The translations under genes and the position numbers were made by a program. From IMG/VR virus record IMGVR_UViG_3300043410_001007, positions 1 through 64,000 of that record: a stretch of 64,000 nt of DNA, one strand, 5' to 3'. Of the stretch, positions 29,256-53,400 are shown in pieces. Within the stretch, counting starts at the first letter, position 1, and each line of letters opens with the position of its first letter. The stretch is from a virus. The notes beneath the pieces were generated by a model, which saw only the letters and a program-made list of their open reading frames with translations, had not been told where the DNA came from and ran no database searches.

Positions 29256-29259
29256 AACT

Positions 29260-32985: not shown

Positions 32986-35900
32986 ATGGCCAAACAAGTA
33001 AGAACACTTACATTTTTACCGGAAATCTTCCAAACTGAAACGAACAGTCACTTCCTAGAGTCTACTCTGGACGTACTGACGAACAAACCTAATCTCTCTC
33101 GTGTCCAGGGCTATGTGGGCGAGAAGCACGGTTACGGCGTCACTGCCAGCGACAAGTATGTGGCTGAGCCTACAGCAGAACGTACAAACTATCAGTTAGA
33201 ACCTAGTGTAGTGTTCCTAAAGAAAGACACCAAAGTCGCACAAGACTTTATTGACTACCCAGGTATCATCAATGCGCTAGAAAAACAGGGCGCTAATGTA
33301 TCTAATCACAACAAGTTGTTCTCAAACGAGTTTTACACATGGGACAGCTTTACTGACCTAGATAAGACAGTCAACTACACAATGTACTACTGGTTGCCAC
33401 TGGGCCCAGATGCTATTCTCATCACAGAAGCACTAGACATAGACACTATCATCGGTCAACAACAGTACACAACGCCTAGTGGTCTAAAGTTCATCAACGG
33501 TCTAAAAGTAAACTTTGTAAATCCAGTACAGACTGGTATGTCAAAGATAGATTACTATGTCGAGGGTGTTGGCACCTCTATTACCCTACTTCCTGCTGAC
33601 GAGATGATTAGTACAGAAGTCACTGCTGGCGGCATGTATGTTCCATATGACAAAGACAACTTCGATACTACTGTATGGAGTATCAAACTGTATGTTCCTA
33701 TTCAACCAGATTACATTACTATCAATAGAAATAGTGAGGATCGTAACGCATGGTCTCGTGGCAATCGCTGGTTTCATCAGCGTGTTCTAGACACTACTGA
33801 GGAGTGGAACGGCCAGATCACACGTAACCCTAGTAACACAATCACTCGTGCTCAGCGTCCTATCATTGAGTTCGAGGGCAATATTCGCCTGTTCAACAGC
33901 GGCACAAAGAGCGCCGGCGCAGTTGATTACATCGACACATACACAACAAACGCACAAGTATCAGTAAGTGGTGCAGCTAAAGGTACCGCTGAAATCGTAG
34001 TTACGCTAACTGATACTACTACTATTACTAACGGTTACTTCACTGTTGCTAGTACAGATAAACTAACACTAGATCAAGCTATTGTATTCAAAGCAACACC
34101 TGGCGTTGGATCAACTTACGTAGATAACTACGGTAAAACAATCGCATACGAAACATTAGGTGGCGTAAAACTATCTACAAAAACATACTACATCTCTAAA
34201 ATCGATAGAGATAACAACGGCATTCAGCTAACAGACATTACTGGTAATACATACCCTAAAGCGGTCACCCACGTCAAAGAAGTCATCCCTTCGATGACAC
34301 TAACAAACGTAGCAACTGTACAGAGTGGCGCCCGTGTTGTGTTTGCGGCAGATGATAACCCAGCAGTACGTTCAAAAATCTACAACATCAGTTACACTAG
34401 TACATCTGGTGATTCGGTCGCTGTTATGGCAGACACTGGTGCCACAGTCACTGATGGCACACAAGTTCACGTTAGTGACGGACCTGGTGATCTAAACGGC
34501 ACTTCATGGCGCTACAGTAGCACTACTGGTGGCTGGATCGAATCACAAAAGAAAGTAGCAATCAATCAAGCGCCTCGCTTCGATATCTTTGATACTAATG
34601 AGATCAGCTTGGGCGACAGTGACTTCTATCCTGCTACAACATTCAAGGGCACAAAAATCTTTAGTTACGCTCCTGGTGTAGGTACTAGTGATAGCGTACT
34701 AGGCTTCCCTGTTGCGTACAGTAGTGGCGAGACCGGTGCCGACTTCGAATTCCGTGTTGATTTCAACTACGATACATTTACATACACTAAGAGTGGTACA
34801 AAAACTACTGCTCTAGTAAGTATTGGATACGTACACACCGGCACAACAAACGTAAAGAAGCGAATTGGTTGGACTAAAGCAATCGCTCCTAGTAAACAGT
34901 ATCAACTATTTTCATTTGATACTACAACTGCCAATCAAACAGATGGTTACGTGTGTGACATCTTAGCTAACACACGCCAAGAAGTAACATGGTCGCCAGC
35001 AGTTGTATTCAATGACGGTGAGTTCGTTGACCCAACAAAATTCACAGTGGTGCGTGATGCTGTGAAAAATACTACAACAATCAAACTATCATCTACTGCT
35101 GATATTGGTTCTAAAGTGACCGTATCTTTACTAAGTGATCAAGTAAGCTCTACTGCGTACTACCAAATCCCTGCTAACCTACAGAACAACGCATTCAACG
35201 TAAACATGACTGCTATTGCTCTAGGTGAAGTCAAACAACATTACGTTGGCGTATTCAATAACGCGCCAGGCTCAAGTGGCCCGCAATTAGGTAGTAACAA
35301 CTACAGCGACTTAGGCGATCTAACAAAGTACGGTAATCGTATTATTCAAAACAGTGCTAGTCTCTTGTTACCTGGTGTATTCTTGCGTAAAGCAGAATAC
35401 AACTTACACGATGCTCTACGCTTCAATGCTGAGAAATATCAAGAATACAAGAACCGTCTAGTAGACCTAGCAGAAGCTAGTGACTACTCAGTGTATCAAA
35501 CACCTGAGCAAATCTTAGACGACATTATCAGTCGAATAACTGCTAACAAACTACAAACAGACAGCTTCTTCTGGAGCGACATGGTCATGAGTGGTAGCCC
35601 GTATGTAACTAACACATACGAATATCGCACAGATATTTTTGCTGGTGTCATTCCTCTATCACACACTTATGATACTAAAAACGCAAACTATGAAGGTTTC
35701 TGTGTTTATTATCAGTCAACAGTTGATGGTAGATTAGTAAACGAGCTATTGATTCGCGGTATCGATTACAACATCACTGATGGTGAACCAAGTATTGTTA
35801 TGACTAGAACTATTCTAGCCGGCGACAAACTAGTTGTAAAAGAATACAACCAAACATACGGCAGTTACTGCCCTAATACACCTACTAAGCTGGGTATGTA

Positions 35901-38900
35901 TCCAGCAACTACACCAAAGATTGTTACTGACTACACATTCATAGAGCCAACTCAATTCATTGTTGGTCATGATGGTAGCATGACTAAGATGTATGGTCAG
36001 ATAGTCAATGGTCGTATGAATGACTTCCGTGACGTAGTGTTATTCGAATTCGAAAAGCGTGTATTCAACAACTTGAAAGTAAGTGGCGAACTACCACTCA
36101 CACAGGACGACCTCATGCCTGGTCAGTGGCGCACTACTAAGTTTACATGGGAAGACATATTAGGTACTTACAGTGAGAACTTCTTAGATTGGGCGGGTAA
36201 GAACCGTGTAAACTACCGCCGTCAGTTCTACAACAAACTAGACAATCGCACATTCAATTACAATAAGGCAACTAACCGCATCGATGGTACACTATTGAAG
36301 CAGGGTGGCTGGCGCGGCATTTATCGTTGGTTCTACGACACTACTAATCCTTCACAAGCACCGTGGGAAATGTTGGGTATTACCGATAAACCCCTATGGT
36401 GGGATGAACGTTATGGTCTAGCGCCATACACTAGTGGTAATACACTAATGTGGGAAGAAATCTCTCGCGGTATTGTATGGAATCACGGCAACCCATTCGT
36501 AGTCAGTACAAAAATCAGACCAGATTTACTAAAGGTATTACCTGTTGATAGTGAAGGCAAGCAACTATTCCCGCAAGATACAGTTGTTGGTAACTATGAT
36601 ATCAATACGTTCAAGCGTGATTGGTTCGCAGGTGACGGTTCGCCAGCAGAAGAAGCATACCGTCGTAGTAGTACATGGGCATTCGACTTGATGAAGCTAC
36701 TATCTACATTCGAGCCAGTACGCTTCTACAACTACTTTGCCGACCGCGACAATTACAAATACAACAGTGATAACAGTCAGTTCTTATTCAAAGAACGCTA
36801 TCACCTAAGCCCATCTTTACTAGATATTTACGGTACAGATGGTACAACTGCTAAACATTCATACATGAACTGGGTTGTTGATTACAATAATCAATCAGGT
36901 AAAGATGGCGCGGCAGCCCTACATCAAACATTACAGAACTTAGATGTTCGTCTAACATATCGCTTAGCCGGCTTCAGTGATAAAGAATACCTAAAGTTCT
37001 TTACTGAGAACTCAACACCTAGTGCTACTAGTGCTAACTTATTGATTCCTGACGATAGCTTTGACCTTATTCTTTATGATAACGTAGCTGATGTTCGCAT
37101 TGAATACAGTTCAGTAATCATTCAAAAGAACTCACTAGGTTACACAGTGTGGGGCAACTCAATGAATGCGCCACACTTCAAAACAGTTACTCCGTTACCT
37201 GGTCCAACTCAAACAATCTCAGTAGATGCGTCTAGTGTAGAAGTAACTACTGAATTTGATAGCACACGTACTGTTGCTGTAGCATACGGCACTCAGTACT
37301 ACACTGAAACTGGCGTAAGTGAGTTCCTAATGAACTACGGACGCTACTTAGAAACTACCGGTGTAACATTCGAGCAAGTAAAGAGCGGCAAGAAGTTAGA
37401 CTGGAAATACAGCATCGAGCAGTTCTTGTACTGGGCTCAACAAAGTTGGGAAGACGGTAGTACCATCAACCTAAACCCAGCGGCTACAAAATTCACTGCT
37501 TACAAAGAAGGCTTAGTTGTTCAACCACTAACCCTACGTCAAAGTAACTTTGTTCTAAATCAAAACTTGTTACCAGTAGATGCGGCCGATCTAGCAGTAT
37601 CTCGTTACAATCAATCATTCGGCGTAACTGTATTGAGTGAGGGTGATACTATCGCCTACACTAATCTAAACATGAGTGCCGTTGAACACGCCATTATCTT
37701 CAATAATGAAACCTTATTCGGTGACGTTATCTACAATAACGAAACAGGCAACAGACAGTCACGTGTTATTCTACAAGGCAGAATAACAGCAAACTGGACC
37801 GGCGGTGTAACTGCTGAGGGCTTTATTCTAAACGAAGGTGACATCGAAGAGTGGAACACCAACTCTAAGTATCCTAAGGGACAAATTGTTACCTACAAAA
37901 ACTTGTACTGGGTAGCACAGTCACTAATCGAAGCAAGCAATGAATTCGACTACACCCTATGGAAACAAAGTTCATACGATCAAATCAAAGTAGGATTGTT
38001 ACCTAACCCAACTACGTTAGCATACGATAGTGTAACACTCTACGACATCAACATGGCTAATTTAGACAGTGAAGCTGACTTACTAGCATTCGGTCTAATC
38101 GGCTATCGTCCACGCACATACATGAGTGAAACACAACTAAGTGATATCACACAAGTAAACATCTATCGTGGCATGATCCCAATGAAGGGAACTAACAAAG
38201 TTGCTGACGCACTAATCGGCGCAACGACTGCGCAGGGAACACTTGACTACTCTATTAGAGAAAACTGGGCTATCAAGCGAGGTGAGTTTGGTAGCGTACT
38301 AAACACTAACTACGCAGAAGTGTTGTTAGACGGCGGTCTACTAACTGCTAACCCATCAATCATTGGATTCAGTGACGGTACAGTAGCTGTTGATGGCGCA
38401 CATCAAACTATTACTGTAAACCCATACAACCTAAAGGGCACAACAAACTACGTCAACGATCTAATCAACTACGGTCGTGCTCCTAAAGATAACGAATTCC
38501 TACCACTATCAGGTGTAACTACTAGTCAACAACGTGGTTTACCAACTGCTGGTTACGTAAACATCGATGACGTAAAGTATGTTGCTTACACACTTGATGA
38601 TCTAAACTTGAATTCTGACGCAATCGATAACTTGTATCGTGATGATGTAGTATGGATAGCAAATCATCGCGGCGAGTGGGATGTATTTACTCCAGTAAGT
38701 CAGGAAATAAACTTACTAACAGTAACTAACAACTTCGATGGCACTGCTACTCTCAAATTTAGCAAGCCACATACCTTAGTTGAGTATGACGCATTCTATG
38801 TTATCGAGTTTGATAGTACTATCAACGGCTACTACATGGTCGACAGTATTCCAGCGGCCGATCAAGTAACAGTTAGTAAATCACTAGCTAAATCAATCAT

Positions 38901-41900
38901 TACTCTAACAGGTACCGGTGTTGTATTCAAACTAGTAAGTAAGCGTGTTACTCACAGTAGTGAACTATCAAGTTACAAAGAAATTGTAAAATACGGTCAA
39001 TATTCAACTCATCGCAATTGGGTTGATACTAGTACAAGTGGTGAATGGCAAGTGCTTGCTAACGGCCCAGTGTACTTGGAATCTAATTTAGATGATAAGT
39101 CTACTGGTATCACTAACTATGGTCTGACAGTAGCTTACTCAAGTAAGATCGGTCAGTTAGTAGCAGACGGTGCTGGCAACCTGTACCTAAATAATGTACT
39201 ACTCGCTAATAGAAAAGCTGGTATTGGCGCAGACACAAAACTAATTGTTGACGGTTATCATGCTTACTGTAGTAGCCCAACAGAGGGTCTTATCTACGTC
39301 TATGACTTCTCTGGTAGTACGCTATCTGCCAAATCAATTGTTGCTGGTAACAAGTACACAATCAGTACACTAGGTACTACCAACTATGTTGCTCTAGGCG
39401 CAACACCACGTTGGACTAATGTACAAGCATACTTCACACCTGAACAAACTGCTACCGCTCCACTAATGATTGTTACTAATGCTAACGGTCATACAATCGA
39501 GGCTGGTACATACTTGAGTGGTAATAACATCACTCCTGGTACGTACATTACCGTACAGACGCACCGCCTAATCACAACTACTCCTACATCAATCGAAGTG
39601 AGTGGTAAAGGCAAGCAAAATCAACAGAGTGTTGGTTTGACTAACGTAACTGGTATTCGTGTTGGTGACTGGGTCGTAAACGATGACCTACCACTAGGCA
39701 CCTACGTACAGAGTATCAACACATACGATAAAGTTATTGTTGTTACCTCTCGTTTCACAAAGAATGTAGCGGTCGGTACACCATTCACATTCTATCGTCC
39801 AATCAGTGCTAATGTCGAAACTAGCACATTCATAGAGCCGCTACACGCTCGTGGTATCTATCGTGTAAGTGAAGCTACACCGGTAGCAGGACTGACTAAC
39901 GTAAACGGCGATCAAACATCAATTCAGGTTGTTGGTCAGCCAGCAGAGAAGACATCATTCTTAGCTACTGTTTCTGGCGGCACAAACACCGGTACAGGTA
40001 CAGTTACACAAGAGTACACTACAATCGATACTAAAGTGGATCTCACTGACCCACGTTTACAAGATGATCTCAGCGCAGTCACGCTATTCGACGGCTTCCT
40101 ACCTAACGACTTTGCTATTAGTCAAGACAATCAGTGGTTGTACGTAAGTAATAAAAATACTAACGAAGTAAAAGTATTCATCAATGAAGTGGGCAAGTTC
40201 AAGCCAGTAAGCAAATACAAAGCAGAGAATTCATTCACTAACGGCGCAATCACCGCGGGATGGGGCACTACTATCGACACCCCTCGTGATGGTAGTAAAC
40301 TAATTGTCGGCGCACCAGAAGAAACAGTAGACGGTTCAGATAACGCAGGCGCAACATACATCTATGCTCGACTAACTGAGAACTTCTTACAAAGCGACCG
40401 CGCCCTAAAAATTGTACCATATCAAACATACTCAATCGAAGATATGGGTGATGTAGACGCTACTAGTCTAGAGGGCTGGTTCGATCTAGGTGCCGGTGTA
40501 CAGTTCAGAGCACGTATTACTAAAGACGATGGCTACATTGATAACACAGCTTGGAAATCAGGCACTATCATGACTGTCGGTGATGCTACATATGGCATCA
40601 AAGATACAACTGGTGCTAGTAGCATCATACGCATCGGTTCATACTTGAGTGGTTACGATCCCGCACATAGCGTTGGCGATACACAAGATCGTATCGTTGC
40701 TGGTACTACCGTTGTTGGCCAGTTCGACTCATATGAAACAGATACACTAACAGCGTTCTGCGACGGAGCTAATGGTTCAAGTGAAATAACATTCGCTGCC
40801 AGAAGCACACCGGCCGCGGTCAGTGTAGGGCAAATAGTTTGCGTAACAACACGTAATAGTACAACACCATTCGCAATCAACCATGTTAGTAAGGCTGACT
40901 ATGAAGATAGTACTAAGAACAGTGAAGTTTCTAAAATTCAACCAGATACATATGTTGCTTACATCAAAAACAACGTAGACTATCACACAGTGTCACTATT
41001 CGATGGTACTAGTCACTCTACAGGAAGTCTAACAAAAGGCAGTGACGGTAAGATTTACAAGGCTAAGAATACCACCACTATGGACCCTGTTACTGATACT
41101 ACGTTTGTAAACTGGTCACAAGTAAAAGTTACTGTTGGTTTGACAAGAAAACTAACAGGTCAACTAGCATCAGCAAACAATGAAGTATCATTCCGTGCGG
41201 CTGGTCGTACTGGTCGCTACATAGTCAGTGAGGCGCATAACTTTAGTGGTGCTCAGGTGAATCACATAGCAGGTTCAGTAGTCACTGCTATCTCTAAAGA
41301 CGTACCGTTTGTTGCTCGTGGCTATGGCTCAATCGTAAAACGCATTAACGGTGTACTATCATCAGTAGACAAAACAGGAACAGTATCACTACGCAAAGAC
41401 TTTATCATCAATGATGTAGTTCCTAACAATAAAGTTATTGTCTACATCGATAACAAGCTAGTACCACTGTACACAATCGGTTATCGTAACGGTCGTAATT
41501 ATCGCAGTTACAACTACAAGATAACAGTCAATACCCTACTCAATCAAACTAAAGTTAGTTTTACTAAAACACCACCTATCGGTAGTGTAGTTGTTATTGA
41601 CTTTGGTAAACTAATCTTACAGCAACGAACTCAAAGTGCGGCGCCACGTGTTGGCGCACAATACGGTCACAGCGTTGCTACTAACAATTGGGGCGCAGAA
41701 GTATTCACAGGCGCACCATATGAAATCTCAGACATCAACAGCAAACATAACATCGAGGGTGCTGTCTATCGCTGGACTAACGTAGGTCAACGATACAACA
41801 ATATTGTTGGTGATCTAAAGAATTTAGTACCAAACAACGCTGGTACATACGATGTTGATGCTAACATTTACATCGACGGCTTCTTAGTGAACATCAAGTT

Positions 41901-44900
41901 TACTGGTGAAGCATCTAAAGCATCAGTAGCCGAACGTATTGCTAAAATCATTGATACTACTGAACCTACTAACGTAATTGCTAGTTCTAATGGCACAACA
42001 TTTACTATCTACAACGGTATCCCAGGCACAACTAATGACCAGGTAGACATCACCGGTGACTTAGACAAGATTGGTATTACCCCTTACATCAAGACGCAGA
42101 CTATCGTTGATACAATCAACTACAGTACTACGGCCGCATTCGGCTACACCATCGCAGTCAACAAAGAACTCAATAGTACACGTGATGCGCTAATCGTATC
42201 TGCTCCCTACACTAACGTATTAGCAGAAACAACATTCGACTTCATTGACGACCTGCGTGATGACGATACAATTTATGATAACGGTGGCACTACATTCGTT
42301 GATAGATTTACTTCTATCGGTGGCGTTTATGAGTATGACTACTTAGCAAGCGACACTGAGACGCCTACTAATCCAGGTATCTACACATTCGGTCAATACG
42401 TCAATCACGTACCGTCCGAAACTGCCGCACTAAGAGCTAATACACCTCGTTACGGTCAATCACTCAATTTCAATGATGGTACTATCACTGTTGGTAGCCC
42501 ACTATGGTATCGTGACGGTACTGGCCGTGTATCTCAGTTCACTACTACAACATATGAGAGTTGCTGGTATGTAGACAAAGCACCTCTACCTAAAGTAGAT
42601 GTAAATAAACTAGTAACAGTTGCTATCTATGATACCAACGATGGCACTGCCCTATCTAGCCTGGACTACATTGATCCAGCACAAGGTAAACATCTAGCGG
42701 CAGTCAACACAAACTTAGACTTTATCGGCGCTACTGACCCTGCTAGTTACACCACTGGTATTATCTGGAACAAAAAGCAAGTTGGTAAGACTTGGATGGA
42801 CACTACCAACTTCCGCTTGATGAACTACAATCAGCCTGATCTACAGTACAACGCACGTTACTTCGGTCAAACATTCCCAGGCAGTACAGCAGATATCTAC
42901 ACATGGATAGAGAGTGATGTTGAGCCTATGGATTACCAAGGCAGTGGTTATGTAGTCAGTATGGACGCTTACACTGCTGGTGTAGTATTCGACCGTCAAA
43001 GCAACACAACACAGACCAAGTACTACTACTGGGTCAAGAACTATGGCGATATTCCACACGGTAAGACCTTAGCACCGACTACTATCGCTAGTTATGTATT
43101 AGACCCACTAAACAGCGGCATTCAATTCCTAGGCGCACTAAGCACAAACTCAATCGCACTATTCAATGCTAGAGAAAGTATCACTGAGAACACTAGTGCT
43201 CTACACGTAGGCTACAGTGAAAGTGATAATGATGACGTTGGTCACCAAGACTGGTTACTCATACAAACTAATAACAAAGACAGCTTCTTGCCTGGCGTAC
43301 CACTATCAATCGCTGATGCTCCAAGTGGGTTGTATCTAAAGTATCTAACCAGCTTCATGGGTCACGAAATTGATACAGAAACTCAACTAGTCAGAAAAGC
43401 CCTAACTGTGCCTGATGAAAACTTGAGTATTCTAACAAGATATGGTGTATCATTCCGCCCACGTCAAACAATGTTCTTGGATCGTGAACTTGCTCTAAAG
43501 AATTACATTGATTATGCTAATCAAGTATTAGCTAGTGAACCTATCACAGAAACACGCGGCACATTCTTACTAAACAAGAGTGGCAGTGATTATGATACTG
43601 CTGACTTCTGGACAGTAACTGACTGGTGGGCTACCGGTTATTCTAGTAGCACAAAGCCATCACTAGAAGTTGATACTTACAATACTCTGTTGACTATCGG
43701 CAGTGTTGATCCTGTAAACGCTGATAGTACCGGTATTGTCACAACACTAAGCGACGGTTTAGTAGCACGTGTAAAGAAGAACGGTCAAGGCCTGTATGAA
43801 ACTTATCGATACACCTCTAGCGCTGGTTGGTCACGTATCAACTTAGAGAACGGTACTATCGCAATCAAAGATACAATCTACACACAAACGTCACCGATTC
43901 CATCGCAAGAAATCTATTGGATTATTCGTTGGCTAACTGAGCAGGTGTTCGTAGATGACTTATCAATCGAGAACAACAACTCATTGATTATGATGTTCAA
44001 CTTTATTCAAAGTGATAGTCCACAGGGACAAAACTATCTACCTTGGTTGAACAAGACAAGTCTAGTAGATATTCAACATACCATTCGACAACTACTACCG
44101 TACAAGAAGTTCCAGATTCAATCTAGTACTCTAATCAACGGCTACATCAATGAAGTCAAACCATTCCACGTTTATGTAAAAGAGTTCTCATACAAGTACA
44201 CTGCTACAGAGACATTCGAAGGCGACATCACTGATTTCGACTTGCCAGCTAAATTCCGCTCTAGTAGTGCGACTTATGTTACGCCACGCCTAATACAGAA
44301 ACAGTCAGAATCTCTTGGCGAATACACATCTACTGATGGTATCTGGAGTGAGAGTGAATACGCAAACTGGTTCAAGTATCATGGTCTATCATACACTAAC
44401 GATGGCGTTGGTGTAGAGGAATCAACTGTTGTTCCGGTTACACAAGTAATAGTAGATATTACAAGTAGCGCGGCTAGTATCTACGTAGAATCTGTTGCGG
44501 GTCTACCAGTAAGCGGTACAGTAAAAATCAATGGTGAAGAAATCTGGTACGAATCAGTAAATAGATCAACCAACTCAATCACTGGTCTAGTAAGAACAAC
44601 TGGTAGTACTCACGCAAGTGGTTCAATAGTATCTCTCATTACTAAACCGGTAATGGTAATGGAAACAGGACGAGGCTATCTAGCTGCACCAATAGTTACT
44701 GCTTGGTATGATACAACTGACTTCCCGTACGGTCCAACAGTTACTGCTACGTTTATGACTACAATGAAGAACGGCGGTCTAACTGTAGTTGATGTAGTAG
44801 AAGAAGGTCGTGGATATCCAACTACACCAGAACTACGTGTTAGTATGAGTAGCATCGTTAGTACATTTACTAGCGGTCAAGTAGATACACAAGTCAATCA

Positions 44901-47900
44901 GTTCAGCGTCGGTGGCCACCAGTTTGTAAACGGTGACAGTGTTGTGTTCGTAACTGACTCGACAGACAGCAATCTAGCACTACGCAACTATGGCAACTAC
45001 TATGTAGGCGCACTAGACGGCGAATCATTTGCGCTGTATGAAACTTATCGTGAGGCTATGGCTAGCTTTACAACTACTGAACCCATCGTTCGTGGCCGTG
45101 CCGCCGGTGATAACTATCACTTCTATCTATCTAGTCCATATGATTATTCTACGCCAATGTTTGTAACAGGCGACTTAGTAAAATTACGCACAAACGTAGC
45201 GGGCGGAACTATTACTGACCCTTCATACAATGATGCGTTCGAATATTACTATGCTCACGTAGATGAAAGCATCGATACAACCGGCGCTACACCTCACTAT
45301 GCTCTGTATGATTATGTAACATTCCATACATCTCACAGTGATGCTATGAGTGGCGCTCACCCTGTCGAATTTGCGCCAGTGGGCGACCCTAATGCTGTAA
45401 GAAGTAATGAGTTCTGTATCGCAAGTCGTACACAACGTGTTGATGATGGCAGAGTCACTATCGGTGCTAAGATTGATGGTACAGTTGGTATCGCGGCGAG
45501 ATTACAAGCGTATCACGGTAATCGTCAAACTCGTGGCATCAGAACCGCCATGAAGTTCGATAGAATTACATACAAGACATCAGTATTCAACTGGGAAAGT
45601 GGCGTCAATAGATTCCAAGAAATGGGCTGGGATGTAACAACCTGGAGCAAGGGCACTGCATACTCTAAGGGCGACCTAGTAGTGTACAACGGCCAACTTT
45701 ATCGTGCTTCACGTGATACAATCAAACGTTGGGAAGTATCTAGTGCTAGTCCTAATGAAACTATCTCTCTATGGACACCTGGTACTAAGTACGCTGTTGA
45801 TAAAAAAGTTCTGTACTCTACTATTATCTACAAGTGTACAGAAGCAACTACAGATAAACCTACCGACGGTGACTTAGAAGTCTTTAGTCTAGCAAACTTC
45901 ACTGAAGTCGCTAGTGATGATCCGCTCATTACTGCGGCCGATCGTATTGTTGGTTTCTACAGACCTACTAGCGACATGCCAGGTAGTACCTATGCTGACC
46001 TAAGTCAACTAATGACTGGCACAACTTATCCGTATCAAACGATTATTGATCCTGAGTTCACCTGGGGCGAGACATACGCATTCTTACCTCGTAACGTAGA
46101 TACAGAAGAGAACACAGTAACTCTAAACAATATCAAGCCACTACTAGCGAGTTACCAAGAAGTTGTCTATGGTACGTACACAACAACAGCAAACTCTATC
46201 ACTCAGTATCACATGGCATCTCAGTTCACGCCAGCAGTTACAGAAACTAACTTAGTTGGCAATTCACTGAGCGTAAGTGGCACACAGAACTTACACAAGG
46301 GCATGCCTATCCGATTTATCGGTGACATGATCCAAGTTTACACTAACACAATCGTAAACGGCACAATCGTTGAGAGTGTTGCTAACGCATTCTACAAAGA
46401 TACAACATACTTTATCGCCAATGTCGATGCTAGTAATAGTAGTATTCAAATTAGTTACAATCAGCAACTATCACAACTATCATCAATATCGACTACTGCG
46501 TCACGTGTTTACGCTAACGGCATGATTACCCTAGATACAGCAATTGGTAACTACACAGACGCTACCATCAAGTTCTCTGGTAGTTCATTCGGTAACGTAT
46601 CTGCTAACTTCTATTACATTGATAGTATCGATGGTACTGGTAAGAACGTAACTCTACGTACTGATGTATTCAGTAGTGGCGGGCAATTCGTTCCTCCTGT
46701 TAGTGCTAATATCGGTGCTAACGGTATCAGTGGTAATATGAAGGTCACTATTGACCCATACTTACCGCAGAAGAATGCAAGTGGTTACACCACTTTAGTT
46801 CTTGGACATCATGTTGGTATGATTGGTGTTGCTAATGCTAACGCTAATATTACTGTTACTGTTGATTCCACTGATGGACTGTATCTAAATGCTCCAGTAA
46901 AGTTCGGCGGCAATAGTATTGGTAACATCAGTAATAGCAGTGTTTACTTCATTAGTAATGTTGACGTTGCTAATAGCGCTATCAACATCGTTACTATTAT
47001 GGGTGATACGACAGCGGTACCTAACGTAGCAAACGCTACTGGTACAATGACCGTTCGTACTGGCTTCCCGATTACAACAGTTACTGGTATCTCTAGTGGT
47101 AACTACTATGTTGCTAATACTACAACACATATTGTAGGTTCAACTGGCAACATCACAGTAGGCACACTTGGTGCCAATGCTAAAGTTCAGTTTGCTAGTG
47201 GTAGTGTTTCTGGTGCTAATGTAAACAAGACTACATCATACTACATTACTAGCGCTAATACAACTACTAATCATATTACTATTACTGATAAGTTAGTGGG
47301 CGGCACTACCATCACACCATCAACTAGTACTCTTAGTAACAGTACTGGTCCACTCTATCTAGTATCAGACTACTACACCCAACCAGTTGAATCCAGTTAC
47401 ATCACTGGTGACTTGTTGAAGATGTACTACAAAGACCCAGCAGATGAAACTATCGGTTTCTACTTTACAAACAGAGAAGCGAATAACGTAATCTCCTTGT
47501 ATGCTTCGTCTGATGACGCGGAAGCAAAGACTAATAGTATTGCTATCCACGACGGAGCATATGGCTACCTGGTCAAGCCACAAACAGTTGTATCGGCCGT
47601 TGGTCCACTAAAGTACATGATAGGCGACATCGTGCCAATGACCTTCGAATTGTCTAGTCCAACTCTAGGCTTTGGTCTAACACCTAACAAGACATATTGG
47701 GCTCGCTTCATCTCTGTAACAACAGTTCGTCTGTATCGCACACGTACTGACGCACAGAACGAGTACAATCACCTACCACTACTAAAACAAATCGGTGGAC
47801 AGATGGTCATCGGCTCACCAATTATCGTTGATGTAGTACAAGCAGATGGTAGTACTAAGATAGAAACAGTAGGTTACAATGAGTACGACAGTATCATCGT

Positions 47901-50900
47901 TAGCGACAATAACGTAACTCCTGACTACAATGTAGCAGGCAAAGAGTTCACATGGGGCTTCGGTCCAGAAGAACTAATGGCGGGTGTAGTTAGTGATGGT
48001 GTGAACATCACTGTAACTACTCGTGCTGGTAGTACCTGGGACCCACTAGCAACAATCAACGGCACAGTAAACGCACGTGCCATCAGCGACAAGTTCGGTC
48101 ATACTGGCTTCAACATGGTCCGCTTTGATGCTTCTGCTAACGGCACTAAAGTAGACTGGTACTTAGATGCCGGCGACTTAGATAGTAATGGTCACGCAAA
48201 AATCAAATCTAGTGGTTTTGTTGGCGCAACTACATTCGTTGAGAGTACATTCACTAACCCAGTAACAACACCATCTGGTGTGAAATTCGCATCAGCAGTG
48301 TACTTTGGTGATCGTGTGAAGAACCCCGTTACAGTTGAAGTTTATGCTAAAACAACTACTTATGGTCAAGTAAAACTAGTTGAGGGTACAGATTACATCC
48401 TAGACATGGCTAATAAAGTCATTCATAGTGTATCAAATACATACGTATCGATATCACTAGAGTTAGTGGTGTATGAGTTCGGTAACAGTAGTCACTTACT
48501 ACGTAGCACAAGTGACATTTATGGCTTACAAACTGTCGGCGATCATAGTGAGATGATGCTAGATGTTCCGTTTGCGCTAGTTGATCTTCCTACTATTGAA
48601 AACTACTGGCTGGGCGCATCAGTATTCGTCAATGGCGTAAAGTTAGAGTACTATGATGGTGTTCGTCCGCTATTCAATTACAATGCTCCAATGTTTAGTG
48701 TGATTCCACAGCGCCCATTCGATCCAAAGAATGACCCATACAACCCAGCCAAGATTGTATTCAATACGCTGTACACTTCCTCAGATTTTGCGTCATTCGT
48801 GTTAACCACTAACGTAATCGGCTACTATCGTGTAGAGAATGCTAGTGATACATACAAGGCCCCAATCACTGATGAAACTGCTTACTCCCGTGGCAAGATT
48901 GGTGTTTATGTAAACGGCGTACTCACCACACAAGATAGTGATTACAAGGTATCCATGATTACAAAAGGCAGTAAATCGGCGCTAGTAACAATCACATTTA
49001 CTAGTGGTGTAGTAGCGGTGGGCGACAACGTAAAGATTACTTACGAGAACGGTGGCGCTAGTGCTCCTATGATGGAAATGTTAGGCACACCAACGCCAAC
49101 TACCGGTGCTGTACAGTATGATCTAACTGGCTTCCTGGGCGATAATAACTATGCGCCGTTCAGTGACTTACGTGTCCTATTCGATAACGCGGCATCTACT
49201 CAACCCAACACATTTGTTACACGTTGTGGTGTTGATTTAGCAGACGGTATGTCTGTGGTAGTTGTCGGTGACGATACTAACAAAATCATTCCTGGTTTCC
49301 CATCATCACATGCCGCAGACATTGTGACTAAGACATATTATCTACGTGATGTAGTCTATCACAGCGACAACTTATGGCAAGATACATTCGGTACTTACAC
49401 ATTCAGATTAGCAACTATCCCAGATGGTCAGCCAATCGTATTGAGTAGTGGTACAGATGGTACGGGTCAACCGCGCCACCTAACATTTGTAGTCAACAAC
49501 GATAACTTGATTGTTGAGATTGACGGCACACGTATCAATGGTATCGCTCCTAATACTCTCAAGTACGGCGGTATTGCTACCCCAATCAACAACACAGTAA
49601 CACTAAGTTACCCAGCACCAGTCTACAGTCGTGCTACATTCTCATCAAGTTATTTGATTGTGAACATCAACGGCGTGCCTTACTCTGCCGCAAATAATTT
49701 CGATAATATCGATCCTGTCTCTGGTGCTAGTAGACACATTCAGTGGTACACTAACTACGATGCTAATAATAACCTGATGGCTGGCTCTGATGCGACATTC
49801 AATGTTGATGATACACTAGCAGACACTGGAGCATTCTTCGACGCTGGTGACCCATTCGATAATCAAAGCATTATTGACATTGTATTTGCTTACGACCTCA
49901 CAGGTAGTTCTGGTCTAATATCTACTGATATTATTACTGTTGAATACAACATAGTTGGTAACGCATGGGTATCAGGACAAACATACGAAGTGGGCGATAT
50001 CGTTACTTACAATGGTGTAATCTTCCGTTGCTACAGTGATGTTACTAGTGCTACTAATCCAGTAACAGATTACTCTCACTGGTCGACTATTTCTATGTCA
50101 CCACCTCCGGTGTATGTAGTAGAAGTAAATCAAGATACTGCTGGAACTACCGGCGTGAACGAAACTTCTATCGGTGGCACTCTAACGGTTTATGCGCCAT
50201 GGTTAGATAACACTCACAAAGTATCAGTGACATCATTTGGTAGAACTACTCAACAGTATCTCAAGACACAAATCTTGAGTGACATCACTGTCACGCAGGT
50301 AACTAACGTTATTGAAATCACAGGTCAACCAACAGTTGTCTACACTGGACCAACACTATCACTACCTGGCGCGGCCCATGGCATAAACATCGGCGACTTA
50401 GTAATGATCAATGGTACAGCAGTCAAAGATTTAGATGGCGGCAACTATTACGCTAAACCAATCGATCTATCAGGAACGCTAGGCTCAACCTACACAGAAG
50501 AATACACATTCCAGTTGTTCTCTGATAGTGGTCTTGTTACACCGATTGATTTAGCAAACCCAGGCGCATTCCAGCCGATAACTACTGGTAAAGAAAGTTA
50601 TGTACAGTTGTTACAAACTGCGACCAATACTGCTTCCATAGCAGTCAACCCAGCGGTCATCAATCAGTCTCAATTCAATTTAGTTGATAAGCAACGCTTA
50701 TTCGTTTCGTTCACTAAGGACAGTACAGTCAAAGGTTCAACAGGCCGCTATTACGTACAAACTAGTAAGTTCGATATTGCTACATTAGACTATGTAGATG
50801 AAGAGGGAACATCACAAACAGTGTACACTCTCATCTTGTTACAACCAGTAGTGCCTGGCAATCTGATTACTATCACGAGTATGGTACCAACAGCGTCTCC

Positions 50901-52608
50901 AGGCGAGAACAGATTACGTATGAATGCTCAATGGGATACTATCTCTAGTTCAGCAGTAGTGCCGTTCTTGTTCCAGCAAGACCCAGCAAATCAATTGTAT
51001 TACACTAGTGTGTATCGTGAGCCTGAGGTTAGTAGAACGCATATTACTGCGGTTAATAGCAGTGATAGTATCACAGTTGCTAACCCATACGCTCTTGTAC
51101 GTATCTACAACTACACTCGCAATATTAATGAAATCGGTGTTCTAAAAACTGGTGAGCACTACGTACTAATCGAAGGCATTACTACTGACGAAATTGCTCA
51201 AATCAATATCACTGATAGTACTGGTGTGAAGATTGAAGAATTCTACTGGGTAAACTCTGGTAACTCATCGAGTGCTCGTATTGTATTCACATTCAACCCT
51301 AACTCAAAACTATCGATTGTAGTAGCAGTAGGCAATAACTTACTAATCAAGGGTGAACAATTACAATATCGTGCTGTAGAACTAGATGTAAACAAGACTA
51401 ACTATGGTCAAATAACTGGTATTCGTCATGCTAGAAATACAACGATTGCCGCTGACCTACAACCATATGATATCGTACAGAGTATCAAAGAAGAAGACCT
51501 GATGGCTTCTAGTTTGTACAATAAAACTTGGTACAGTAATACAGTTACCGCTTTAGTTGATACTAGTGGCGGCGATGTATCTGGTACGTACACACTACAG
51601 GACAGTACACTAGAAACATCACTAGTAAAAGTAGGTGACACGCTCAAGTTCAGCAGTACAAGTAATGATTTCTCTGGTATTGCTTATGTCTACACTGGTC
51701 TACAAGCAATCAAGTCGATTGTTAGTGATAATGGTACCTATGTAAACTTTGCGATTACTGCGTATGGTGACACCGGATGTGTTATTACAGACCGCTATTA
51801 CTATGATACTGGTACCAGTACATGGCTGTATGATCGCCCATCTACTGGATCTCAGCCAGCTAAGTTTGGTGAGACTATGGTGGTGAGTGGCAATGCTACT
51901 GATGGTTACTACATGTCAGTTCGTGTAGATCAGCCAGGAATGGCAGTTGGCCAGACAGTTGTGTGTAGCGCAATCGCTTACGCTATTCGTGAGGGTACTA
52001 CCATATCCAATATTGAAGAGGCAACACCTAGTAAACCATCCAATGCTAAGATTATTACCATGTACAACAAGACTGGCTGGCCTCTACTCAAGGATATCCC
52101 TCGAGGAACAGCAATCCAATACGGTACTACAATGCCAGTACTAGCGCCTAATGCTAAGTTCGCTAAGCCTGGGGAGAAGATCCAGTTCAGAAGATACAAC
52201 AAAGCGAATGATGACTGGTCTACTAAAATCAAATATTACGTAGCATCGGTTGGATCGTATTTGGACGTCTTTACAGTGGTAGAAAGCAAGGTCAACCCCG
52301 ATAATCCACAACAATGGACCATCAAGATTGCTGAGCCAGTTACTATTCCTAGTGACGCCCGCGCAGAAATCGCAATCAGCGAATTCACAGTCACAGACAT
52401 CGTAGATAACGGCGATACTACATACGCAGTGACAGTAGAAACTTACACTGATTGTGTTGATGGCTCAGGAGCAACCGCGGCAGCAACGCCGCTAATTACC
52501 GGAGGCTCAGTAACATACGCAACTGCTACATACAAGGTGATGGACAAGCCGCTACAACTTGATAATAGTAGCATTGCTGGTGGATTCTTGAATTACACGG
52601 CAAAATAA
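32986..52608 (+). CDS. Giant virion structural protein, 6540 residues
   Basis: A single uninterrupted frame of 19.6 kb follows gp6, where T4 has genes 7-10. The N-terminal 140 residues (LTFLPEIFQTETNSHFLEST, then ERTNYQLEPSVVFLKKD) look like the start of large tail proteins in marine T4-like phages, as I remember them. WEMLGITDKPLWWDERYG lies near 1126. A propeller-like segment starts near 2376 (FAISQDNQWLYVSNKNTNEV). FG-GAP-like repeats lie near 2442 (GAPEETVDGSDNAGATYIY), 2909, 3072 and 3170. Four carbohydrate-binding-like modules of the W-x-x-G-x-x-Y-x-x-G-D-x-V-x-Y-N-G type start near 1623, 4220, 4263 and 5661. Beta repeats fill about 4400-4800. I infer a baseplate or tail-surface protein that touches host glycans. 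It has its own late promoter. Correspondence to gp7 or another T4 gene is not shown. Confidence 0.85.
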   Translation: MAKQVRTLTFLPEIFQTETNSHFLESTLDVLTNKPNLSRVQGYVGEKHGYGVTASDKYVAEPTAERTNYQLEPSVVFLKKDTKVAQDFIDYPGIINALEKQGANVSNHNKLFSNEFYTWDSFTDLDKTVNYTMYYWLPLGPDAILITEALDIDTIIGQQQYTTPSGLKFINGLKVNFVNPVQTGMSKIDYYVEGVGTSITLLPADEMISTEVTAGGMYVPYDKDNFDTTVWSIKLYVPIQPDYITINRNSEDRNAWSRGNRWFHQRVLDTTEEWNGQITRNPSNTITRAQRPIIEFEGNIRLFNSGTKSAGAVDYIDTYTTNAQVSVSGAAKGTAEIVVTLTDTTTITNGYFTVASTDKLTLDQAIVFKATPGVGSTYVDNYGKTIAYETLGGVKLSTKTYYISKIDRDNNGIQLTDITGNTYPKAVTHVKEVIPSMTLTNVATVQSGARVVFAADDNPAVRSKIYNISYTSTSGDSVAVMADTGATVTDGTQVHVSDGPGDLNGTSWRYSSTTGGWIESQKKVAINQAPRFDIFDTNEISLGDSDFYPATTFKGTKIFSYAPGVGTSDSVLGFPVAYSSGETGADFEFRVDFNYDTFTYTKSGTKTTALVSIGYVHTGTTNVKKRIGWTKAIAPSKQYQLFSFDTTTANQTDGYVCDILANTRQEVTWSPAVVFNDGEFVDPTKFTVVRDAVKNTTTIKLSSTADIGSKVTVSLLSDQVSSTAYYQIPANLQNNAFNVNMTAIALGEVKQHYVGVFNNAPGSSGPQLGSNNYSDLGDLTKYGNRIIQNSASLLLPGVFLRKAEYNLHDALRFNAEKYQEYKNRLVDLAEASDYSVYQTPEQILDDIISRITANKLQTDSFFWSDMVMSGSPYVTNTYEYRTDIFAGVIPLSHTYDTKNANYEGFCVYYQSTVDGRLVNELLIRGIDYNITDGEPSIVMTRTILAGDKLVVKEYNQTYGSYCPNTPTKLGMYPATTPKIVTDYTFIEPTQFIVGHDGSMTKMYGQIVNGRMNDFRDVVLFEFEKRVFNNLKVSGELPLTQDDLMPGQWRTTKFTWEDILGTYSENFLDWAGKNRVNYRRQFYNKLDNRTFNYNKATNRIDGTLLKQGGWRGIYRWFYDTTNPSQAPWEMLGITDKPLWWDERYGLAPYTSGNTLMWEEISRGIVWNHGNPFVVSTKIRPDLLKVLPVDSEGKQLFPQDTVVGNYDINTFKRDWFAGDGSPAEEAYRRSSTWAFDLMKLLSTFEPVRFYNYFADRDNYKYNSDNSQFLFKERYHLSPSLLDIYGTDGTTAKHSYMNWVVDYNNQSGKDGAAALHQTLQNLDVRLTYRLAGFSDKEYLKFFTENSTPSATSANLLIPDDSFDLILYDNVADVRIEYSSVIIQKNSLGYTVWGNSMNAPHFKTVTPLPGPTQTISVDASSVEVTTEFDSTRTVAVAYGTQYYTETGVSEFLMNYGRYLETTGVTFEQVKSGKKLDWKYSIEQFLYWAQQSWEDGSTINLNPAATKFTAYKEGLVVQPLTLRQSNFVLNQNLLPVDAADLAVSRYNQSFGVTVLSEGDTIAYTNLNMSAVEHAIIFNNETLFGDVIYNNETGNRQSRVILQGRITANWTGGVTAEGFILNEGDIEEWNTNSKYPKGQIVTYKNLYWVAQSLIEASNEFDYTLWKQSSYDQIKVGLLPNPTTLAYDSVTLYDINMANLDSEADLLAFGLIGYRPRTYMSETQLSDITQVNIYRGMIPMKGTNKVADALIGATTAQGTLDYSIRENWAIKRGEFGSVLNTNYAEVLLDGGLLTANPSIIGFSDGTVAVDGAHQTITVNPYNLKGTTNYVNDLINYGRAPKDNEFLPLSGVTTSQQRGLPTAGYVNIDDVKYVAYTLDDLNLNSDAIDNLYRDDVVWIANHRGEWDVFTPVSQEINLLTVTNNFDGTATLKFSKPHTLVEYDAFYVIEFDSTINGYYMVDSIPAADQVTVSKSLAKSIITLTGTGVVFKLVSKRVTHSSELSSYKEIVKYGQYSTHRNWVDTSTSGEWQVLANGPVYLESNLDDKSTGITNYGLTVAYSSKIGQLVADGAGNLYLNNVLLANRKAGIGADTKLIVDGYHAYCSSPTEGLIYVYDFSGSTLSAKSIVAGNKYTISTLGTTNYVALGATPRWTNVQAYFTPEQTATAPLMIVTNANGHTIEAGTYLSGNNITPGTYITVQTHRLITTTPTSIEVSGKGKQNQQSVGLTNVTGIRVGDWVVNDDLPLGTYVQSINTYDKVIVVTSRFTKNVAVGTPFTFYRPISANVETSTFIEPLHARGIYRVSEATPVAGLTNVNGDQTSIQVVGQPAEKTSFLATVSGGTNTGTGTVTQEYTTIDTKVDLTDPRLQDDLSAVTLFDGFLPNDFAISQDNQWLYVSNKNTNEVKVFINEVGKFKPVSKYKAENSFTNGAITAGWGTTIDTPRDGSKLIVGAPEETVDGSDNAGATYIYARLTENFLQSDRALKIVPYQTYSIEDMGDVDATSLEGWFDLGAGVQFRARITKDDGYIDNTAWKSGTIMTVGDATYGIKDTTGASSIIRIGSYLSGYDPAHSVGDTQDRIVAGTTVVGQFDSYETDTLTAFCDGANGSSEITFAARSTPAAVSVGQIVCVTTRNSTTPFAINHVSKADYEDSTKNSEVSKIQPDTYVAYIKNNVDYHTVSLFDGTSHSTGSLTKGSDGKIYKAKNTTTMDPVTDTTFVNWSQVKVTVGLTRKLTGQLASANNEVSFRAAGRTGRYIVSEAHNFSGAQVNHIAGSVVTAISKDVPFVARGYGSIVKRINGVLSSVDKTGTVSLRKDFIINDVVPNNKVIVYIDNKLVPLYTIGYRNGRNYRSYNYKITVNTLLNQTKVSFTKTPPIGSVVVIDFGKLILQQRTQSAAPRVGAQYGHSVATNNWGAEVFTGAPYEISDINSKHNIEGAVYRWTNVGQRYNNIVGDLKNLVPNNAGTYDVDANIYIDGFLVNIKFTGEASKASVAERIAKIIDTTEPTNVIASSNGTTFTIYNGIPGTTNDQVDITGDLDKIGITPYIKTQTIVDTINYSTTAAFGYTIAVNKELNSTRDALIVSAPYTNVLAETTFDFIDDLRDDDTIYDNGGTTFVDRFTSIGGVYEYDYLASDTETPTNPGIYTFGQYVNHVPSETAALRANTPRYGQSLNFNDGTITVGSPLWYRDGTGRVSQFTTTTYESCWYVDKAPLPKVDVNKLVTVAIYDTNDGTALSSLDYIDPAQGKHLAAVNTNLDFIGATDPASYTTGIIWNKKQVGKTWMDTTNFRLMNYNQPDLQYNARYFGQTFPGSTADIYTWIESDVEPMDYQGSGYVVSMDAYTAGVVFDRQSNTTQTKYYYWVKNYGDIPHGKTLAPTTIASYVLDPLNSGIQFLGALSTNSIALFNARESITENTSALHVGYSESDNDDVGHQDWLLIQTNNKDSFLPGVPLSIADAPSGLYLKYLTSFMGHEIDTETQLVRKALTVPDENLSILTRYGVSFRPRQTMFLDRELALKNYIDYANQVLASEPITETRGTFLLNKSGSDYDTADFWTVTDWWATGYSSSTKPSLEVDTYNTLLTIGSVDPVNADSTGIVTTLSDGLVARVKKNGQGLYETYRYTSSAGWSRINLENGTIAIKDTIYTQTSPIPSQEIYWIIRWLTEQVFVDDLSIENNNSLIMMFNFIQSDSPQGQNYLPWLNKTSLVDIQHTIRQLLPYKKFQIQSSTLINGYINEVKPFHVYVKEFSYKYTATETFEGDITDFDLPAKFRSSSATYVTPRLIQKQSESLGEYTSTDGIWSESEYANWFKYHGLSYTNDGVGVEESTVVPVTQVIVDITSSAASIYVESVAGLPVSGTVKINGEEIWYESVNRSTNSITGLVRTTGSTHASGSIVSLITKPVMVMETGRGYLAAPIVTAWYDTTDFPYGPTVTATFMTTMKNGGLTVVDVVEEGRGYPTTPELRVSMSSIVSTFTSGQVDTQVNQFSVGGHQFVNGDSVVFVTDSTDSNLALRNYGNYYVGALDGESFALYETYREAMASFTTTEPIVRGRAAGDNYHFYLSSPYDYSTPMFVTGDLVKLRTNVAGGTITDPSYNDAFEYYYAHVDESIDTTGATPHYALYDYVTFHTSHSDAMSGAHPVEFAPVGDPNAVRSNEFCIASRTQRVDDGRVTIGAKIDGTVGIAARLQAYHGNRQTRGIRTAMKFDRITYKTSVFNWESGVNRFQEMGWDVTTWSKGTAYSKGDLVVYNGQLYRASRDTIKRWEVSSASPNETISLWTPGTKYAVDKKVLYSTIIYKCTEATTDKPTDGDLEVFSLANFTEVASDDPLITAADRIVGFYRPTSDMPGSTYADLSQLMTGTTYPYQTIIDPEFTWGETYAFLPRNVDTEENTVTLNNIKPLLASYQEVVYGTYTTTANSITQYHMASQFTPAVTETNLVGNSLSVSGTQNLHKGMPIRFIGDMIQVYTNTIVNGTIVESVANAFYKDTTYFIANVDASNSSIQISYNQQLSQLSSISTTASRVYANGMITLDTAIGNYTDATIKFSGSSFGNVSANFYYIDSIDGTGKNVTLRTDVFSSGGQFVPPVSANIGANGISGNMKVTIDPYLPQKNASGYTTLVLGHHVGMIGVANANANITVTVDSTDGLYLNAPVKFGGNSIGNISNSSVYFISNVDVANSAINIVTIMGDTTAVPNVANATGTMTVRTGFPITTVTGISSGNYYVANTTTHIVGSTGNITVGTLGANAKVQFASGSVSGANVNKTTSYYITSANTTTNHITITDKLVGGTTITPSTSTLSNSTGPLYLVSDYYTQPVESSYITGDLLKMYYKDPADETIGFYFTNREANNVISLYASSDDAEAKTNSIAIHDGAYGYLVKPQTVVSAVGPLKYMIGDIVPMTFELSSPTLGFGLTPNKTYWARFISVTTVRLYRTRTDAQNEYNHLPLLKQIGGQMVIGSPIIVDVVQADGSTKIETVGYNEYDSIIVSDNNVTPDYNVAGKEFTWGFGPEELMAGVVSDGVNITVTTRAGSTWDPLATINGTVNARAISDKFGHTGFNMVRFDASANGTKVDWYLDAGDLDSNGHAKIKSSGFVGATTFVESTFTNPVTTPSGVKFASAVYFGDRVKNPVTVEVYAKTTTYGQVKLVEGTDYILDMANKVIHSVSNTYVSISLELVVYEFGNSSHLLRSTSDIYGLQTVGDHSEMMLDVPFALVDLPTIENYWLGASVFVNGVKLEYYDGVRPLFNYNAPMFSVIPQRPFDPKNDPYNPAKIVFNTLYTSSDFASFVLTTNVIGYYRVENASDTYKAPITDETAYSRGKIGVYVNGVLTTQDSDYKVSMITKGSKSALVTITFTSGVVAVGDNVKITYENGGASAPMMEMLGTPTPTTGAVQYDLTGFLGDNNYAPFSDLRVLFDNAASTQPNTFVTRCGVDLADGMSVVVVGDDTNKIIPGFPSSHAADIVTKTYYLRDVVYHSDNLWQDTFGTYTFRLATIPDGQPIVLSSGTDGTGQPRHLTFVVNNDNLIVEIDGTRINGIAPNTLKYGGIATPINNTVTLSYPAPVYSRATFSSSYLIVNINGVPYSAANNFDNIDPVSGASRHIQWYTNYDANNNLMAGSDATFNVDDTLADTGAFFDAGDPFDNQSIIDIVFAYDLTGSSGLISTDIITVEYNIVGNAWVSGQTYEVGDIVTYNGVIFRCYSDVTSATNPVTDYSHWSTISMSPPPVYVVEVNQDTAGTTGVNETSIGGTLTVYAPWLDNTHKVSVTSFGRTTQQYLKTQILSDITVTQVTNVIEITGQPTVVYTGPTLSLPGAAHGINIGDLVMINGTAVKDLDGGNYYAKPIDLSGTLGSTYTEEYTFQLFSDSGLVTPIDLANPGAFQPITTGKESYVQLLQTATNTASIAVNPAVINQSQFNLVDKQRLFVSFTKDSTVKGSTGRYYVQTSKFDIATLDYVDEEGTSQTVYTLILLQPVVPGNLITITSMVPTASPGENRLRMNAQWDTISSSAVVPFLFQQDPANQLYYTSVYREPEVSRTHITAVNSSDSITVANPYALVRIYNYTRNINEIGVLKTGEHYVLIEGITTDEIAQINITDSTGVKIEEFYWVNSGNSSSARIVFTFNPNSKLSIVVAVGNNLLIKGEQLQYRAVELDVNKTNYGQITGIRHARNTTIAADLQPYDIVQSIKEEDLMASSLYNKTWYSNTVTALVDTSGGDVSGTYTLQDSTLETSLVKVGDTLKFSSTSNDFSGIAYVYTGLQAIKSIVSDNGTYVNFAITAYGDTGCVITDRYYYDTGTSTWLYDRPSTGSQPAKFGETMVVSGNATDGYYMSVRVDQPGMAVGQTVVCSAIAYAIREGTTISNIEEATPSKPSNAKIITMYNKTGWPLLKDIPRGTAIQYGTTMPVLAPNAKFAKPGEKIQFRRYNKANDDWSTKIKYYVASVGSYLDVFTVVESKVNPDNPQQWTIKIAEPVTIPSDARAEIAISEFTVTDIVDNGDTTYAVTVETYTDCVDGSGATAAATPLITGGSVTYATATYKVMDKPLQLDNSSIAGGFLNYTAK

Positions 52609-52782: not shown

Positions 52783-53400
52783 GTGAAAAGCAACTTCGGA
52801 TTCTCAGTACACGGACACATAAAAATACATGACCCACAGACAGGGGAAGTATTCGTTGATAAAGATAACGCCATCAACTACGAGGCGATGAGTATTGCTG
52901 TTGCTAACGCCTTATCTAATAGAGGGACTGGTATGATTTACAAAATGGCACTCGGCAACGGCGCCTCAAGTATCGACAGTACTGGTCTAATTACCTATCT
53001 ACCACCAAACGTAACAGGTACTAATGCTAGTCTGTACAATCAAACATACTCTAAGATTGTAGACGATACATTACTATCTAATACTGACCCAACACGTAAC
53101 AAAATGAGTGTAAGTCATACTGCTGGTAAGACATATTCAGACATTCAAATTCAGTGCCTACTGGACTACGGTGAGCCTAGTGGTCAGTACGCTTTCGACA
53201 ATGCGACTGATACTACTAGTGACTATGTATTCGATGAACTAGGGCTACTATGCGACTACGGCGCAGACGGCGAAGGTAGTATTACTACTAAGTTGATTAC
53301 TCACGTTGTGTTTCACCCCGTACAAAAAGCTCTAAACAGACAAATTCAAGTTGACTACACTATTCGTATTCAGTCAATTACTAACTTAGTCACGCTGTAA
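52783..53400 (+). CDS. Putative virion structural protein (205 aa)
   Basis: The frame starts at GTG (52783) with AGGAATAATAAC upstream; no in-frame ATG lies close by. It has 205 residues. After KIHDPQTGEVFVDKDNAINY come a helical block (EAMSIAVANALSNRGTGMIY), KMALGNGASSIDSTGLITYL and a beta-rich C-terminal half ending VDYTIRIQSITNLVTL. The layout recalls small tail or baseplate accessory proteins in marine T4-like phages. I cannot name the family with certainty. It sits between the giant protein and the S74 fibre, and only nine bases separate it from the latter, so a tail-surface or fibre-connector role is likely. Confidence 0.65.
   Translation: MKSNFGFSVHGHIKIHDPQTGEVFVDKDNAINYEAMSIAVANALSNRGTGMIYKMALGNGASSIDSTGLITYLPPNVTGTNASLYNQTYSKIVDDTLLSNTDPTRNKMSVSHTAGKTYSDIQIQCLLDYGEPSGQYAFDNATDTTSDYVFDELGLLCDYGADGEGSITTKLITHVVFHPVQKALNRQIQVDYTIRIQSITNLVTL

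Follow-up and report, generated by a model that had tools for sequence, protein, structure and literature searches.

Which part of a phage particle is built by a 19.6-kb reading frame that lies directly behind a baseplate wedge gene? We analysed this locus in a window of 64 kb, a stretch of DNA without N letters that belongs to a viral record of 103,929 bases, itself probably a fragment. On balance we favour the reading that the product is a baseplate wedge protein in the gene-7 position, belonging to a jumbo phage related to T4, and that it has grown by accretion and displays adhesion modules; the frame probably encodes the largest part of a jumbo phage tail tip.

Reading frame and protein family

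Two features of the window are needed at the outset:

32986..52608, + strand: giant virion protein, 6540 aa (phrog_10938, E 6.9e-154 on aa 1-1500); ATG at 32986, stop at 52606-52608
8759-9406: head maturation protease

The initial annotation had reported an uninterrupted frame of 19.6 kb and 6540 residues; the product has a computed mass of about 717 kDa. A missed stop was looked for and the description held: the frame contains no in-frame stop, against 358 to 680 in the other five frames of the same stretch. Mononucleotide shuffles of the frame gave a mean of 385 stops and a longest stop-free run of 135 aa, and when the frame was cut into 1.5-kb bins, 13 of the 14 had their highest GC content at codon position 1. 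A search of IMG/VR with the central part (aa 960-1960) found at least 592 relatives, and the best 80 were kept. The 50 records read from these loci have open frames of 3988 to 7757 aa, twelve of which (6001-7757 aa) lie entirely within their contigs, completeness being calculated from match and start positions relative to contig ends. Because independent contigs repeat it, the length of the giant frame is no artefact, and a sequencing error as its source was ruled out. One of the 50 records, G042, carries a single in-frame TAA. The remark that proteins of this length are rare in phages may hold generally but does not apply within this lineage.

Some deposited records of Asteriusvirus and Klebsiella phages (L011:15224-25171; SD-2_S15, SD-6_S16, K64-1) have the giant gene broken into 2 to 9 frames, possibly by sequencing errors, whereas it is whole in PBECO4 and RaK2. 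The contig of the window also holds a 1694-aa frame without PHROG match (L100:1261-6345). Relatives of the core were also found in metagenome-assembled genomes labelled Neomarinimicrobiota, Endomicrobia, Gammaproteobacteria and Puniceicoccaceae (L108, L109, L110, L111, L112, L113), and these may be phage contigs binned together with a bacterium.

PHROG 10938, annotated 'virion structural protein', matched three consecutive slices of the giant protein (E 6.9e-154, 3.4e-39 and 1.3e-49). This family is already known, with no function assigned to it. A tblastn search with aa 960-1959 matched 57 of 50,697 phage records, including RaK2, 121Q, PBECO4, GAP32, CBB, PA5oct, Atu_ph07, Phosso and SCTP-2; a scan for close relatives with the N-terminal 1000 aa confirmed none. 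Members such as PA5oct gp355, Atu_ph07 gp180, CBB_236, GAP32_230 and RaK2 ORF070w share gene place and scaffold with the protein of the window. The cultured members are shorter, however (3326-4555 aa in the 11 measured), with a smaller C-terminal part, and a propeller was detectable at the insertion site in 0 of 11, whereas the clade of the window carries one.

The claim that the product is a structural protein was supported at the level of the family, homologues being present in virions. In CBB the family member is CBB_236, for which the study of purified particles lists 21 unique peptides and a coverage of 7.72% (PMC5259590), and the record of PA5oct gp355 carries the note 'ESI-MS/MS'. The accessible parts of the Atu_ph07 (PMC6102473) and RaK2 (PMC3622015) reports yielded no member-specific peptide counts. 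The low coverage in CBB, which gives no demonstration of the whole chain, would suit a polyprotein cut into several structural proteins at assembly, as would the length and domain mosaic of the giant protein and the head maturation protease encoded in the window. We consider such processing very improbable, since both scaffold halves (see below) lie in one frame in the complete members read, some split deposited records aside, and the T4 protease acts on head proteins. A single-chain wedge protein is the reading with which we continue.

Gene position and comparison with T4

The giant gene is embedded in a series of baseplate genes:

22386..22685, + strand: gp53-type wedge subunit (phrog_7145 'baseplate wedge subunit', E 4e-27; gp53 from gene order, as in CBB)
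25248..28757, + strand: gp5-type hub (phrog_13211 'baseplate hub subunit and tail lysozyme', E 3e-39)
28769..29209, + strand: gp25-type wedge subunit (phrog_261/975/43; gp25 from gene order)
29227..32922, + strand: gp6-type wedge subunit, directly upstream (phrog_10646 'baseplate wedge subunit', E 8e-261; profile against T4 gp6, E 1.5e-4)
52783..53400, + strand: 205-aa conserved protein of unknown function, directly downstream (phrog_11259, E 4e-65)
53410..56589, + strand: tail fibre-like protein with an S74 intramolecular chaperone at its end (PHROG tail fibre matches; PF13884, E 9e-7)

Both proteins beside the gp53-type gene (21148-22386 and 22687-25245) contain a LysM domain (PF01476), as if the baseplate had extra peptidoglycan-binding parts.

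In T4 the gene directly after gp6 in the wedge cluster is gene 7. That the giant gene occupies this place had been noted for the window, and it held across the loci compared: a gp6 homologue ends between -4 and 58 nt from the start of the giant gene in 76 of 76 loci (the 80 loci minus 4 dropped, a readable start and upstream sequence being required). In 11 cultured records the gene before it carries a baseplate wedge annotation nine times and is called hypothetical twice (SCTP-2 and Munch). On the 3' side, a homologue of the 205-aa protein lies within 1.5 kb of the giant gene in 26 of the 27 loci with a complete 3' end, and a homologue of the fibre-like gene was found in 8 of these 27 within the available sequence.

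This gene order bears on another possibility, namely that the giant protein is a surface appendage, either a whisker or a tail decoration, and no part of the baseplate. According to the accessible part of the CBB study, some cultured relatives, CBB among them, have tail hairs whose genes are not pinpointed (PMC5259590). Yet GAP32, described there as possibly hairless (PMC5259590), has the same gene in the same place and with the same scaffold, and the fixed position behind gp6 also argues against an appendage, which we hold to be scarcely probable.

Position behind gp6 is the likeness to the T4 wedge initiator gp7, but that protein has 1032 aa and no detectable sequence similarity to the giant protein. 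Nine segments compared by hhalign with a profile of 7 gp7 sequences gave probabilities of 0.1-0.2%. The initial annotation had proposed profile searches of slices against T4 gene families; run with seven segments against T4 gp5-gp12 profiles, they returned noise throughout, with at most 0.7% probability. As a control, the gp6 family of the window found T4 gp6 (E 1.5e-4 over 306 columns). T4 gp7, gp8, gp9, gp10, gp11 and gp12 were thus rejected by profile as identities of the giant protein. When whole records were searched, the gp7 profile found T4 and none of 13 others, a profile absence that is no proof, and the Phage-Gp8 profile matched 0 of 13. The gp9/10 N-terminal family was found in 0 of 8 cultured relatives and not in the record of the window, and was present in 2 of 4 other large uncultured contigs.

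The statement that none of the T4 genes 7-10 is recognisable here therefore stands for the gp7, gp8 and gp9/10 profiles, but it has to be qualified by the fibre gene 0.8 kb downstream of the giant gene (53410-56589), which matches tail-fibre, 'baseplate wedge initiator' and short-tail-fibre profiles. Since T4 gp7-gp10 are undetectable in the giant protein and in its cultured relatives, one chain may do the work of several, and the label 'gp7' fits by place, not by shown descent. The earlier suggestion that a single chain replaced several T4 proteins finds some room in this absence, but descent or replacement is not supported by the segment profiles.

Domain plan of the giant protein

When the window was aligned with 9 members from cultured phages and 75 from environmental records, a two-part scaffold appeared (aa 1 to about 2030 and 3207-3880), with growth at fixed sites:

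32986..39075, + strand: first half of the conserved scaffold, aa 1-2030 (alignments; model of the close relative L028, aa 1-1190)
32986..33435, + strand: first 150 aa, where conservation within the family is among the strongest (alignment A6, 34 environmental and cultured members)
37849..37914, + strand: CBM_5_12-like motif inside the scaffold, aa 1622-1643 (E 0.33, below the Pfam cut-off; pattern match)
42604..44625, + strand: second half of the conserved scaffold, aa 3207-3880 (scaffold HMM, 9 of 9 cultured references, E 4e-95 to 6e-48)

About 2700 residues of scaffold are common to the cultured relatives compared. The stretch from anchor 2005 to anchor 3215 measures 81 residues in Munch, Kaldavass, GAP32, XbC2 and CBB, 257 in PA5oct and 1210 in the window; beyond residue 3880 the first five phages have about 815 residues and the window 2660. 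Smaller insertion sites lie near aa 150-240 and 330-450.

Structure prediction by segments, also proposed earlier, was carried out with AlphaFold2 on L028 (the N-terminal 1190 aa and the propeller stretch). For L028 aa 1-1190 the mean pLDDT was 82 and the pTM 0.74. The best match of this model was small and weak, a P1 baseplate chain with Z 8.3 over 74 residues, followed by the CBA120 tailspike TSP4 (Z 8.0 over 64 residues); the T4 baseplate chain 5iv5_B, which from its length we take to be gp6, gave Z 5.9 over 72 residues. The values of 8.3 and 5.9 are near or below the caution line of the alignment tool. Phage proteins of tail, neck or baseplate are frequent among the fold matches, in agreement with a role in the baseplate, though no proof of one. 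Matches in BFVD over the full N-terminal model include an Atu_ph07 structural protein and none identifiable as gp7; the absence of gp7 among the N-terminal fold matches says nothing on whether the folds differ. PDB sequence searches with the N-terminus gave no match, and no Pfam family was matched by more than 1 of the 34 members within the first 150 aa. An N-terminus like gpI/TIGR02242, another candidate, was rejected (Pfam 0 of 34 members, NCBIfam none for slices of the window).

The insert between the two scaffold halves contains repeated FG-GAP motifs in the alignments:

39079..42603, + strand: inserted FG-GAP/integrin-type seven-bladed propeller (predicted), aa 2032-3206, with long inter-blade inserts (family HMM; L028 model)
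39112..39315, + strand: propeller repeat 1, aa 2043-2110 (by eye, alignments A3/A4)
40093..40209, + strand: propeller repeat 3, aa 2370-2408 (by eye, A4)
40231..40374, + strand: propeller repeat 4, aa 2416-2463 (by eye, A4)
41641..41784, + strand: propeller repeat 5, aa 2886-2933 (by eye, A4)
42130..42345, + strand: propeller repeat 6, aa 3049-3120 (by eye, A4)
42436..42549, + strand: propeller repeat 7, aa 3151-3188 (by eye, A4)

Six repeats are readable by eye in the window, repeat 2 not being clear, and seven in L028. A propeller HMM built without the window hit it with E 8.3e-90 (aa 2409-3206) and a domain E of 2.1e-7 (aa 2310-2410). With a limit of E <= 0.1, Pfam FG-GAP_2 matched 15 of the 18 relatives scanned, the best of them at 5.6e-17; the propeller of the window itself had no Pfam FG-GAP match. 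The AlphaFold2 model of L028 aa 1940-3136, computed from 58 alignment rows, reached a pLDDT of 79 and a pTM of 0.51 over this two-part stretch and has a seven-bladed propeller fold; the model is of L028, not of the window. Its best PDB matches by Foldseek were mostly beta-propeller proteins. After VIA-align 2 had re-aligned 968 Foldseek chains, integrin alpha heads made up all 50 of the matches listed (Z 29.7-31.1, rmsd 2.9-3.3 A, 308-325 residues, 14-16% identity, model residues 1 to about 550), and the integrin-only result applies among those 50. Integrin alpha-M was also weakly matched in a PDB-sequence profile search (E 0.33).

From sequence and model together, we predict that the insert of the window folds as a propeller with seven blades, of the type seen in integrin alpha heads. 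The likeness consists of seven FG-GAP-type repeats and the fold match of L028 at Z of about 31, but identity is about 16%, and the phage propeller has not kept the DxDxDG-type calcium loop pattern; a crude search of whole chains found this pattern a single time in each of 4 sequences out of 81. Unlike the integrin head, the phage propeller has long inter-blade inserts and lies inside a phage structural protein. The lengths of these inserts differ greatly between relatives. DUF2460-like stretches were seen in the propeller region of 4 of 18 relatives, in inter-blade inserts (for example L058:13142-15950).

Behind the second scaffold half lies the variable part:

44626..52605, + strand: hypervariable C-terminal 2660 aa (tblastn; alignment)
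45640..45705, + strand: CBM_5_12 (chitin-binding type 3), aa 4219-4240 (PF02839, slice E 5.1e-10, above cut-off)
49963..50055, + strand: CBM_5_12, aa 5660-5690 (PF02839, E 2.9e-6, above cut-off)

The family alignment thins beyond about aa 4025, and the last 2750 aa had no tblastn match among the 50,697 phage records. In pairs whose cores are 76-79% identical (L016/L027, L021/L027), the C-terminal part aligned in broken pieces of about 25-49% identity. CBM_5_12 exceeded the Pfam cut-off in two of four slices, and a crude pattern found a motif of this type in 40 of 81 sequences.

Proposed role and origin of the propeller

By analogy, the N-terminal region would join the gp6 dimer in the core of each wedge. 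This placement is drawn from other baseplates, for example that of P1, in which, according to the accessible part of its description, the N-terminal regions of the wedge proteins make a core helical bundle (PMC12810830); a search of the open-licence PMC literature found no baseplate cryo-EM of relatives. The scaffold would extend outward as an arm, and six copies per particle would turn the propeller and the variable C-terminal part toward the cell, where they could contact host surface glycans or proteins. The propeller may thereby help the phage to hold on to its host, and the giant protein would act with the downstream fibre ahead of sheath contraction. Adhesion, which we infer from the hypervariable C-terminus, the modules of sugar-binding type and the type of propeller, is the least certain step of the proposal.

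Propellers are common protein-docking folds, and the propeller and the C-terminal part could instead be assembly platforms that hold neighbouring wedge subunits or tail fibres and replace the T4 gp8-gp11 joints. T4 gp8-gp10 are undetectable in cultured relatives, and the 205-aa conserved protein and the fibre gene directly follow the giant gene, as would suit such a platform. RaK2-like and PA5oct-like members do without a propeller, however, and the greatly varying lengths of the inter-blade inserts fit exposed loops better than a fixed joint, so that we regard a platform as unlikely and retain the adhesion reading of the wedge protein.

To follow the propeller through the family, 172 sequences (160 environmental, 11 cultured and the window) were scored at E < 1e-10. 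Both scaffold halves were present in 136 of them, 105 propeller-positive and 31 negative; one positive sequence has a gap of less than 250 aa between the halves. Of 167 usable rows, 115 went into a FastTree core tree, the first set having been thinned to one in three; the tree comprised 66 carriers, 31 sequences without a propeller and 18 unlabelled ones. One branch, with support 100, sets all 66 labelled carriers apart; shuffled labels gave 26.5 changes and in 0 of 500 cases as few as observed. The 11 cultured members all fall on the non-carrier side, and SCTP-2 and L128 are long branches of unsure placement. The propeller HMM, built from members of the clade, is more sensitive inside it; a Pfam search of the corresponding inserts, made in 8 uncultured members scored negative and in 4 cultured members, gave no FG-GAP match. 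These comparisons point to an apparent single origin of the propeller at this site, in a clade of uncultured phages. More tentatively, we can imagine that one large clade of uncultured jumbo phages acquired an integrin-alpha-type head once, fixed it at a single site of the wedge protein in the gene-7 position and carries one per wedge as an adhesion and possibly trigger module. If true, one type of seven-bladed head would serve in adhesion both in animal cells and in a phage baseplate.

As far as our searches reach, the domain plan of the giant protein has not been described before, and it now covers a previously uncharacterised virion protein of very great size and very wide occurrence, with at least 592 relatives in a single viral collection. 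The plan also illustrates growth of a phage structural protein, from about 3300 to more than 7700 residues, through insertion at a few fixed sites, and it places an integrin-type propeller of apparently single origin in a protein encoded beside gp6. We found no description of an FG-GAP/integrin-type propeller in a phage tail or a jumbo phage in the open-licence PMC literature, and within the same reach the new element is this fixation inside a protein encoded next to gp6.

When whole records were searched, nine of ten uncultured relatives (all but G014) had FG-GAP_2 in the giant frame; it was found neither in the giant frame of the window nor in those of 8 cultured relatives. Sinorhizobium phage Phosso has 42 FG-GAP_2 matches outside its family member, most of them in two giant proteins annotated as hypothetical, and a 409-aa frame of Atu_ph07 contains 2, from which we conclude that FG-GAP repeats are used more broadly as a module in these phages. 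The Phosso proteins (XYS97266, XYS97267) resemble the giant protein in being large, in belonging to a related jumbo phage and in their FG-GAP_2 repeats, but they are products of other genes, about 130 kb from the Phosso family member, with many tandem repeats and annotated as hypothetical only. Their genes are adjacent (L114:2339-11827 and 11901-22979; Phosso 48338-68978).
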